A stretch of DNA of 64,000 nucleotides from Halorubrum alkaliphilum (GTDB lineage: Archaea > Halobacteriota > Halobacteria > Halobacteriales > Haloferacaceae): contig NZ_JAGGKQ010000008.1 in assembly GCF_017873815.1 (NCBI RefSeq), forward strand, positions 1 through 64,000, read 5' to 3'. Shown piece after piece: positions 9,301-34,497 of this stretch. The translations under genes and the position numbers were made by a program. The notes below the pieces were generated by a model. The model saw only the letters and a program-made list of their open reading frames with translations. It was not told where the DNA came from and searched no databases. How positions within the stretch are numbered: position 1 is the stretch's first letter; every line of letters begins with the position of its first letter.

Positions 9301-9498
9301 ATGAGCACCGAGCTGACGTTCAACGAGGACGGTGTCGACGTCGTGTATCAGGGCACCGAGTTCGAACTGGAGAAGGATCTGATCGAGGAGGCCACGGGGA
9401 AGGGATACCGGGACGTGACCGATCACGAGGTCCTCCAGATCATCGCCGAGGAGCCCGAACTCAACGGCGAACCGGTCCGCATCGGCGACGTGTTGTAG
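9301..9498 (+). CDS. Small conserved haloarchaeal protein (DUF5800-like)
   Basis: A 65-residue acidic protein with the core VDVVYQGTEFELEKDLIEEA followed by a helix and PVRIGDVL at the end. From memory it fits haloarchaeal DUF5800; function unknown. CTTTTATCA lies 22-30 bp before the ATG, predicting a leaderless mRNA. A weak GGTCG/CGACC hairpin follows the stop. The 926-bp gene-free repeat block starts here. Confidence 0.75.
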   Translation: MSTELTFNEDGVDVVYQGTEFELEKDLIEEATGKGYRDVTDHEVLQIIAEEPELNGEPVRIGDVL

Positions 9499-9552
9499 TC
9501 GGTCGTCTCCGGCCGACCCGTGGCTCCGTGTTAGTCCTCGGTGAGACGGACG

Positions 9553-9653
9553 TTTATAAGTATCTGACGGGAGGGTGGACAAGTTGAAAGCTCCAGTCGT
9601 CCGTTTATAAATCAGAGACTGCGGATCGGCGGTGAACTGCTTCAAAGCCCCAG
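9553..9653 (+). repeat. Paired TTTATAA/CCCCAG repeat, locus A
   Basis: Two related units in the same direction. Unit 1 is TTTATAA at 9553 with CTCCAG at 9591-9596. Unit 2 is TTTATAA at 9604 with CCCCAG at 9648-9653, a start-to-start distance of 44 nt. The two TTTATAA boxes are 51 nt apart. Conserved text before the second motif is GGTGAACTGCTTCAAAG. The same layout recurs at loci B (34.3 kb) and C (37.8 kb). Each TTTATAA is preceded by CG and looks like a haloarchaeal TATA box. Confidence 0.8.
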
Positions 9654-9682
9654 CCGTGCGGGCGGCGTACGCTCGCTGTCGT

Positions 9683-10193
9683 CCGAAAATCGAAGATTTT
9701 CGGGATGTCGTCAGAACTCTTTGAGTTCTGACTGCTAGCCAAAAATCTCCGATTTCTGGCAATGACGAGAGAGCTTCGCTCTCTCGAACCACGCTCCTCG
9801 TCGCTCACTCCGTTCGCTCCTGCGGTGCTTGCGTCGTCATCAGAACGCTGCGCGTTCTGATTGGCTCACGAGAGCGGAGCTCTCGTGAACGCCTACGCCG
9901 CCCGCAACGGCAGCGAGGCGCTCCGCGCCTCGGGCAGCCGGACGTAGTCCGGCGACTGCCCCTTTGAGTCCCACCCACACAGCAATCGCACCTCAGGCCT
10001 CCCCAGCCTCGTCACCGGCGGCTTTGCCGCCGGTTGCAAGCGAGAGCTTTGCTCTCGCCCTGTCGGCGACCCCCGCCGGACCGCTCGGCGGGGGTCGCCG
10101 ACTCCCTCGCGCCGTCGTCGCCGGCGCGTAGCGCCGGCTGCCAGAGGGACCCTCGGTCCCTCGCGGTTCGCGCACTTAAAAGGGCGCGAACCG
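9683..10193. repeat. Array of 14 short hairpins, mostly with 3-nt loops
   Basis: Hairpins (arm, loop, arm) lie at 9683-9703 (9 bp), 9711-9731 (9 bp), 9738-9760 (10 bp, one mismatch), 9766-9786 (9 bp), 9839-9861 (10 bp), 9866-9888 (10 bp), 9914-9932 (8 bp), 9937-9953 (7 bp), 10014-10034 (9 bp), 10040-10058 (8 bp), 10063-10101 (16 bp, 7-nt loop), 10120-10138 (8 bp), 10144-10162 (8 bp) and 10164-10193 (10 bp, 10-nt loop). Twelve have exactly three unpaired bases. The arms differ in sequence, so this is not a tandem copy array. Confidence 0.9.
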
Positions 10194-10424
10194 GGGCGCG
10201 CCACCGCATCGATTACTTATAAAATATCGTCGCTACCGCTCAAATACCTTTTAAATACGATCTCGTTGCTATCGATCTGCGATCTACTCCCGAAATCACT
10301 CGAAACGTGGTCTCCGACGGTCGGCCGTAGGACGACGGTCCGATCCTGAAAAGGGACTCCACCCGTTCAACCCGCCCGTCCCGAAAGCGCAACGCCGATA
10401 CCGTGCCGATGAGAAACGTGGTCC

Positions 10425-11129
10425 ATGTACGAGGCGGTCCACGCACACCCGGACGGCGAGACCACCGTCGCGCGTCACGCGGCAACCGCGGCACGATACG
10501 GGTACGACGGGGTAGTCGTCCGCACGGGGACGAGCGCGGATCCCGCCACCTACTCCGACATCGCCGAGGAGTACGGGATCGACGTGGTCGACGCGGTCGA
10601 GATCGATGCCGGCGATCGGACGGCCGCGTCCGGCGCGGTCGGCTCTCGCCGCCCCGATCACACGCTCGTCTGTGTCGTCGGGGGCGACGACGGGCTGAAC
10701 CGGTACGCGGTCGAGGAACCCCGCATCGACGTGCTCGTCCGGCCGAACGGCGACTCCGGCGGGTTCAACCACGTTCTCGCGAAGGCCGCCCGCGACAACG
10801 GCGTCCACGTGGAGTTCGACTTCGGGCCGGTGTTGCGCGCGACCGGCGGCAAGCGGGTGCGGGCGCTTTCGGACCTACGGAAGCTCCGCGAGATCGTGAC
10901 CTACTACGACGCCCCCCACGTCGTCAGTGCGAACGCAACCTCCCATCTCGAACTCCGACCACCTCGCGAGCTGGTCGCCGTCGCCGAGCGCGCCGGCTTC
11001 GACCCCGAATGGGTTCGCGACGGGCTCCGTGCGTGGCGGGAGATCGCGGAGCGGAACCGGGAGCGACGCTCCGGGGCCTTCATAGAGCCGGGGGTCCGAC
11101 GTGGGAGACATGAAGAAACCGGTCGATGA
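10425..11129 (+). CDS. rnp3: Ribonuclease P protein component 3 (Rpp30)
   Basis: A 234-residue TIM-barrel-like protein of the Rpp30/p30 family, with HPDGETTVARHAATAARYGYDGVVVR near the N-terminus and FDFGPVLRATGGKRVRALSDLRKLREI with ISA-type strand VVSANATSHLELRPPREL later. It is a subunit of archaeal RNase P, which removes tRNA 5' leaders, and pairs with Pop5/Rnp2 encoded two genes downstream. The methyltransferase gene overlaps its 3' end by 20 bases. The tail after about 210 is charged and variable. Confidence 0.92.
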   Translation: MYEAVHAHPDGETTVARHAATAARYGYDGVVVRTGTSADPATYSDIAEEYGIDVVDAVEIDAGDRTAASGAVGSRRPDHTLVCVVGGDDGLNRYAVEEPRIDVLVRPNGDSGGFNHVLAKAARDNGVHVEFDFGPVLRATGGKRVRALSDLRKLREIVTYYDAPHVVSANATSHLELRPPRELVAVAERAGFDPEWVRDGLRAWREIAERNRERRSGAFIEPGVRRGRHEETGR

Positions 11130-33974: not shown

Positions 33975-34127
33975 TTACCATCTAACCGCTCTCGTGGGCT
34001 CCCTCCGATCGATCCGCGACAGGTGATCGAGCAGTACGGAGTGTTCGTTGAACGATAGCGGGAGTGAATCTCACGGATCGACGGCAACGAGGTCGTATTT
34101 AAAGGCTGAACGGGCGATGGCGGCGGT

Positions 34128-34355
34128 GGTTTATAACAAAAATTGCGGTGGCGCGCGCGAGAAACGCGCGCGAGGTCGCCGGCGACACCGCAGGGAGCGA
34201 GTGAAACGCGTGACTGAGGCGCACAGTGATCGTGCGCCGCCCGCACGGCTGGGGCTTTGGAGGCGTTCACGGCCGAGTTGCCGTCGATCGCTTATAAACG
34301 ATCGACTGGGGCGTTGGCGGTGTTCGCTGCCGATCCGACAGCAACGACATATAAA
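34128..34355 (-). repeat. Paired TTTATAA/CCCCAG repeat with hairpin tail, locus B
   Basis: On the minus strand: TTTATAT starting at 34355 and CCCCAG starting at 34311 (44 nt apart), then TTTATAA starting at 34298 and CCCCAG starting at 34254 (again 44 nt). GTGAACGCCTCCAAAG precedes the last motif. The tail contains a GGCGCAC hairpin (34218-34238), the palindrome GTCGCCGGCGAC (34175-34186), the hairpin CGCGCGCG-AGAAA-CGCGCGCG (34152-34172) and, at the far end, GCCACCGCAATT followed by TTATAA. The order matches locus A. Confidence 0.8.
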
Positions 34356-34497
34356 CGAACGTTCGGATCTTCGAACCCGTGTACCGAGCCAGCAACGATT
34401 CACTTGGGGTTTCAACGGCCCGGCAGGATCGACTCCTTACAGGCGGGTGGACGGGATCGACCGACAGATACGACACACTTCGGTCCGTACGATCGGT

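Follow-up and report, generated by a model that had tools for sequence, protein, structure and literature searches.

The 64,000-nucleotide stretch of Halorubrum alkaliphilum DNA analysed here (the window) contains, at positions 9683-10193, a 511-bp block in which short hairpins follow one another almost without interruption, which raises the question whether the hairpins arose where they stand or were brought in as units, and if so of what kind. The fourteen hairpins counted in an earlier note on the sequence, twelve of them with 3-nt loops, are borne out: there are eleven perfect triloop hairpins with arms of at least 7 bp, a further perfect hairpin with 17-bp arms and a 7-nt loop, a near-perfect triloop hairpin at 9738-9760 (GCCAAAAATC-TCC-GATTTCTGGC), and a hairpin of 10-bp arms and a 10-nt loop at 10164-10193. 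The longest stem, put in that note at 16 bp, is present but measures 17 bp, and the description of the hairpins as perfect holds for the twelve with loops of 3-8 nt but not for that at 9738-9760, which has a single A.C mismatch.

Chance or base composition is a hardly credible source of such a series, and the high G+C of the DNA is all that could be cited in its favor. In 2,000 dinucleotide shuffles of 9683-10193 the number of triloop hairpins averaged 0.07 with a maximum of 2, and with loops of 3-8 nt admitted the same shuffles gave a mean of 0.34 and a maximum of 4; a similar density in shuffled sequence, named in the earlier note as a possible refutation, is thus ruled out, and modules common to several genera also speak against chance. 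The other refutation proposed there, that the block codes for a conserved protein, was looked at in a Pfam search of the ORFs inside the block, which gave nothing above cut-off. The whole window contains 28 such triloop hairpins, 11 of them inside the block. The block is probably a mosaic of small palindromes that are mobile as units, REP/RPE-like in character, and lodged in a larger MITE-like host element.

The frame element around the block

The larger element, here called the frame, is a non-coding, dispersed repeat, in most copies ~0.4-0.8 kb from end to end, bounded by terminal inverted repeats (TIRs), restricted to Halorubrum and polymorphic in position. Its window copy occupies 9540..10302 of the forward strand, as delimited by own-genome matches, aligned ends, a genus-wide search and the TIR, and lies between the genes of a 65-aa DUF5800 protein (9301..9498, forward strand; PF19115, E=5e-35) upstream and of the RNase P subunit p30, Rnp3 (10425..11126, forward strand; PF01876, E=3e-33), downstream. 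A search of the 3.1-Mb own genome (64 contigs) with 9540-10260 as query gave 119 matches in ~39 clusters, i.e. ~40 dispersed copies, a minimum count since draft contigs often end in frame repeats. Own-genome contigs C8, C11, C6, C2, C15, C25 and C35 end inside or near frame copies.

The aligned copies share three blocks. The left block consists of ~57-bp repeats (TTTATAAGT...CCAAAGCCCCAGCCG), which in other copies form a tandem array with an anchor spacing of 57 bp; in the window copy it spans 9553..9656, with TTTATAA at 9553-9559 and 9604-9610 and a conserved CAAAGCCCCAGCCG anchor. The middle block (CTGCCCCTTTGAGTCCCACCCC...CTCCCCAGCCTCG in the aligned copies) is found at 9956..10012 as CTGCCCCTTTGAGTCC ... 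CTCCCCAGCCTCG, and the right block (GCGCGCCACCGCA...TTTATAA...TTTTAAATACG) at 10196..10302, recognized from the aligned copies and the TIR search by its GCGCGCCACCGCA, TTATAA and TTTTAAATACG motifs, all on the forward strand. The TIR is 17 bp long (TGAGCGATnnCGGGAGT) and has 98 own-genome matches with at most two mismatches, compared to 1 for a reversed control, mostly as facing pairs ~370-800 bp apart. In the window copy the right TIR (ACTCCCGAAATCACTCG) is at 10286-10302, and the left end is truncated or degraded, its TIR not being recognizable. A second copy at 34049..34380 of the reverse strand (~34.05-34.38 kb; TIR at 34049-34065) has a matching frame that is nearly hairpin-free. The region that contains this copy, 34020-34400, sits upstream of a menA-like prenyltransferase gene.

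The left anchor was found in 49 of 52 Halorubrum genomes, up to 186 times per genome, and was absent from all 118 genomes that represented 27 other (sister) genera of the family; among loci of named records the frame is present in 26 of 28 from Halorubrum vs 2 of 52 others. As to position, the DUF5800 gene and rnp3 are adjacent, without the element, at the orthologous locus of genome G115, and G139 carries, upstream of rnp3, another element that G112 lacks. In being TIR-bounded, short, non-coding and of high copy number the frame resembles MITEs; unlike these, it has yielded no target duplication, nine copies inspected having no consistent direct repeats outside the TIRs, and in the own genome no TIR pair was found that encloses a transposase. 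The only longer pair there (1.6 kb), a candidate for an autonomous relative sharing the TIR, encloses an agmatinase-like gene. A phage origin was rejected on the lack of a match in phage records, and residence on plasmids on the lack of a match there to the left-part consensus, only the double-hairpin units matching.

Double-hairpin units and the sites that they occupy

Constant linkers join the hairpins in pairs, and the arm sequences are not arbitrary. A unit of 49-60 bp consists of a CGTC tag, an arm of 7-10 bp, a 3-nt loop, the second arm, a linker and a second hairpin. The linker is 4-7 nt long and TGCYA-like (TGCCA, TGCTA, TGGC and TGCAA were seen, with CCA in part of them only), and the spacing to other hairpins is flat; the feet of the arms vary (e.g. 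GCC, CGA, GTC, ATC), and loops in the own-genome loci number 118 of 3 nt, 27 of 4 nt and 7 of 5 nt. The earlier statement that the arms differ and hence do not represent one expanded repeat is accurate in that several families exist, and misses that these families are related double-hairpin units.

The window copy carries, all on the forward strand, three sites at which the occupancy of aligned copies could be compared. Site S1 (9679..9791) is filled with 113 bp of nested double hairpins: an outer one (9683-9703 and 9766-9786) has a second unit (9710-9732, linker TGCTA, 9738-9760) within its linker. Site S2 is empty (9827..9828, GCGGTG^CTTGCG). Site S3 (9837..9891) holds, after a CGTC target tag, a 55-bp double hairpin, ATCAGAACGC-TGC-GCGTTCTGAT / TGGC / TCACGAGAGC-GGA-GCTCTCGTGA, defined by site occupancy and of a type also present in other genera. 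To the right of these follow a double hairpin recognized by hairpin scan and linker spacing (CGAGGCGC-TCC.. / GGCA / GCCGGAC-GTA.., 9914..9953) and, beyond the middle block, one directly 3' of CGTC with GTC ... GTC flanks (ACCGGCGGC-TTT.. / TGCAA / GCGAGAGC-TTT.., 10014..10058), which occurs by itself, too, on a plasmid from a different genus (query 471-531; L245). The hairpin with 17-bp arms and a 7-nt loop occupies a slot, B1, defined by slot comparison (10062..10102); it is followed by a double hairpin after CGTC (GCCGGCGC-GTA.. / TGCCA / GAGGGACC-CTC.., 10120..10162) that matches other genera (query 555-638), and hairpin inspection places the terminal hairpin of the variable zone at 10164..10193 (CGGTTCGCGC ... 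GCGCGAACCG).

The units fill defined sites as all-or-nothing insertions that are sometimes nested in a linker. With states scored from frame-sequence anchors only, S3 is empty in 17 copies and has exactly +55 bp in 19; S2 is empty in 37 and holds a 49-bp double hairpin in 5; S1 is empty (18 nt) in 31 and has +56, 58 or 60 bp in 9, the arms differing but being self-complementary, while two copies, that of the window (131 nt) and L019 (132 nt), have a unit within a unit. The filled and empty members of these comparisons are paralogues or come from different species rather than from isogenic strains, and gene conversion, instead of fresh insertion, could account for part of the movement of units from one frame copy to another. 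The suggestions in the earlier note that the hairpins have a common origin and were inserted in a larger element agree well with these filled and empty sites and with the matching hairpin-free frames.

The insertion sites share a short tag. CGTC lies within 8 nt of the foot in 125 of 239 distinct units (52%) vs 14% expected, GTC lies within 6 nt of the outer foot in 196 of the same 239 (82%) vs 21.5% at random, and in all five cases in which the target was reconstructed its left side ends in CGTC. Direct repeats flanking the units are short and variable (~2 to 6 bp), and consequently the target-site rule is no cleaner than CGTC.

Outside the frame the units occur throughout Halobacteria, including in-frame in protein genes. 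The S3 hairpin (TCAGAACGC-N3-GCGTTCTGA) is found across Halobacteria, commonly with the same partner hairpin or in four-hairpin arrays, and in a blastn comparison of the window element with plasmids other haloarchaeal genera match over the double-hairpin units only. Bacterial matches to the 18-base hairpin pattern (4 of the 80 matches listed) were discounted as approximately the chance level in 257 Gb. A TnpB gene of Haloferax larsenii contains a 51-bp unit in reading frame of which three homologues are empty, one TnpB homologue has a shorter remnant of the unit, and a Halomarina NAD(P)-binding protein gene contains another in-frame unit; in the own genome an IS605-type element has a unit that is absent from a related copy, with junctions (CGTC) as at S3.

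Further ORFs contain such units as judged by their presence alone. A histidine kinase ORF of Halorussus aquaticus (L070, 4929-6593) has several in-frame hairpins in the ATPase domain, a YjjX-like nucleoside triphosphatase ORF of Halobacterium sp. (L110, 709-1353) has a hairpin pair that amounts to an extra peptide RKTTTSSSAARQNASRSEDDDH, and a Hef-like helicase ORF of Natrialba aegyptia (L109, 2-1642) has an in-frame S3-type hairpin (NSSSDQNAERSENE).

Constancy of arms, variation of loops, and inversion

In 30 filled S3 sites, selected by a filter that leaves out unrelated 55-bp stretches, departures from the consensus number 2 among 1,200 arm positions, 5 among 120 linker positions and 91 among 180 loop positions, and the loops form 24 different pairs. 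Some of these sites were retrieved by means of the first hairpin, which biases its arm; the second arm (2 of 600 changed) and the own-genome copies are free of that bias. Loops of the GNA class, read on either strand, make up 63% of 307 in double hairpins, compared to GNA or TNC in only 17 of 121 background triloop hairpins from two other Halorubrum genomes. GNA and TNC are balanced, and the closing pair is C-G in at least 90%. The prevalence of GNA triloops and the near-invariance of the arms support the selection for structure considered in the earlier note, or else a constraint on structure. In DNA, triloops of the form C(GNA)G are of exceptional stability. Calculated DNA folding energies, with the parameters used, did not separate GNA from other triloops, so the argument from GNA rests on loop statistics and on known mini-hairpin behavior (PMC10527192 discusses DNA mini-hairpins of extraordinary stability). 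The loop pattern suggests that the machinery reads the folded DNA and not the sequence at its tip.

Since GNA loops are equally frequent on both strands, a DNA structure is favored over a transcript. This bears on a quite unlikely account in which the frame encodes a structured RNA, with TTTATAA as promoters and the hairpins folding in the transcript. TTTATAA resembles haloarchaeal TATA boxes and is repeated in the left block, and slots retain hairpins while their sequence changes. The strong transcription of a different Halorubrum repeat, a PATE (PMC10544981), counts for the same account. Against it, neither strand is preferred in the loops or in the slots, which invert; the units also lie inside protein genes and IS elements; and an Rfam search of the block gave no match.

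Slot B1 shows that folding can be kept while sequence is replaced: its 88 unique sequences have a mean stem of 10.0 bp vs 3.1 bp when shuffled, and the unrelated sequences that occupy it in other copies also fold. This, together with near-invariant arms and linker and free loops, is what recommends the decidedly improbable view that the hairpins are DNA sites which the host selects for a role in the nucleoid, in supercoiling, in replication or in termination, and which purifying selection maintains, as selection for binding sites would give such invariance. However, occupancy of the sites is patchy within one genome, the frame is absent at orthologous loci in relatives, and two other Halorubrum genomes have many frame copies with few triloop hairpins.

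Some hairpin slots are exact inversions of one another, including own-genome loci L019 and L051, and hence inversion between arms does happen; it would interconvert GNA and TNC loops. The process that acts on the hairpins in this way afterwards could be template switching. As a source of the hairpins themselves, template switching or quasi-palindrome correction at short imperfect palindromes, which would make them in place without any mobile unit, is unlikely, although perfect arms and exact slot inversions fit arm-templated copying, and the unrelated arms that fold in B1 and the constancy of arms beside varying loops point the same way. Fixed sizes (49, 55 and 56-60 bp), fixed sites and empty counterparts do not accord with it, nor does the recurrence of the same arms and linkers, along with the CGTC tag, across many genera and within genes; template switching uses local sequence and does not bring in a shared 55-bp two-hairpin unit. 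Because the hairpins are recurrent modules of 49-60 bp, sharing their arms, their linkers and the CGTC tag across many genera, the proposal in the earlier note of template switching at short palindromes is unsupported as their main source. One slot hairpin in zone B of locus L032 is made up almost entirely of runs of G and of C (GGGGGCCCCCCCCCCCC...) and may be either an extreme palindrome of recent origin or an artifact of assembly.

Proposed mobilization and relation to known palindromic elements

If the block is such a mosaic, its units would spread by site-selective insertion 3' of CGTC, probably through a single-stranded, hairpin-forming intermediate as for bacterial REP/RPE palindromes, and by a putative trans-acting enzyme of the IS200/IS605-type HUH class or by a replication-based route. 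Inversion between the arms after insertion would flip the loops, a step seen in part in the inverted slots and the equality of GNA and TNC; the arms may be near-invariant because the folded DNA is what is recognized, and the frame may accumulate units because it offers several CGTC sites at which landing does no harm. A more specific and more tentative possibility is a dedicated haloarchaeal single-strand DNA system with a non-RAYT enzyme, in which GNA double hairpins insert 3' of CGTC, loops are rewritten or inverted while arms are kept, and a genus-specific TIR element serves as collecting platform.

No dedicated transposase for the units was found. Of two Y1 transposases in the own genome, one is intact, short and of the IS200 type and the other is broken; Y1 matches there are only of this short type, and RAYT was not found. 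From archaea only IS200-type subclass 1.1 of TnpA-Y1 has been reported (PMC6006769). A Y1 search of the genus gave no match in 10 of 51 genomes, some of them hairpin carriers, and an association with Y1 transposase was rejected on this ground and on the single intact own gene. Derivation of the units from IS605 ends was also rejected: ends defined from aligned near-identical IS copies carry different hairpins, e.g. with 4-nt loops.

The closest known kind is the CGTC-tagged REPs (PMC3733652), which include Rickettsia RPE-4 and RPE-6, have no known mobilizing enzyme, and have been described in bacteria only, with no archaeal members reported; our search of the open literature likewise found no description of an archaeal REP or RPE. 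Both kinds are short stem-loops, mostly paired, dispersed and also intragenic, with CGTC at one end and without a known dedicated transposase, and the tag of the bacterial elements (CGTC, or TGTC or CCTC, at the palindrome foot) is matched by the units here. Other features differ: loops are 4-5 nt in the bacterial elements but 3 nt and GNA here, and stems of 8-9 bp whose first two pairs are A/T contrast with 7-10 bp and varied feet. For the unpaired CCA tail of the bacterial elements the comparison is mixed, CCA being present in part of the linkers. The haloarchaeal units also have a TGCYA-like linker, can be nested, and have a host frame bounded by TIRs. On account of the loops and stems they are not filed as members of the CGTC-tagged REPs, although they would work like a REP/RPE system.

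Insertion in-frame in protein genes (TnpB, NAD(P)-binding protein) is shared with Rickettsia-type palindromic elements, and two palindromes per mobile unit, intergenic mosaics and a single-strand logic with REPINs, BIMEs and RAYT systems; REPIN/RAYT systems, however, use a GTAG tag and the RAYT (TnpA-REP) enzyme, whereas the tag here is GTC/CGTC. Among archaeal elements the closest are the PATEs and SMRs of Haloquadratum, which differ in ends and size. PATEs (PMC3119063) are haloarchaeal, non-coding and palindrome-bearing without target duplication, and their terminal-only forms are 52 bp; they are related to IS605 ends and have near-terminal palindromes and, unlike the frame, no TIRs. SMR-A (PMC3119063) is likewise small, without target duplication and inclined to insert in other palindromic elements, but is ~110 bp long with terminal inverted repeats, as against 49-60 bp and two triloop hairpins. 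The hairpin pairs thus look like previously undescribed tiny mobile DNA. From bacteria, REP-like palindromes were already known decades ago; an archaeal counterpart makes the question of the mobilizing enzyme testable, with a target, unit boundaries and many natural insertions at hand in hosts that are not known to have RAYTs.

The frame itself may have consequences for gene order. Comparison of a pair of related Halorubrum genomes, G139 (L231, 9521-10100 and 16386-16648) and G112 (L237), shows breaks of synteny at frame elements, which suggests that these mediate rearrangement; a 6.3-kb block that two frame copies enclose in G139 is found elsewhere and inverted in G112. From this one species pair, frames at breakpoints may have a part in shaping the order of the genome in a genus that is common in salt lakes.
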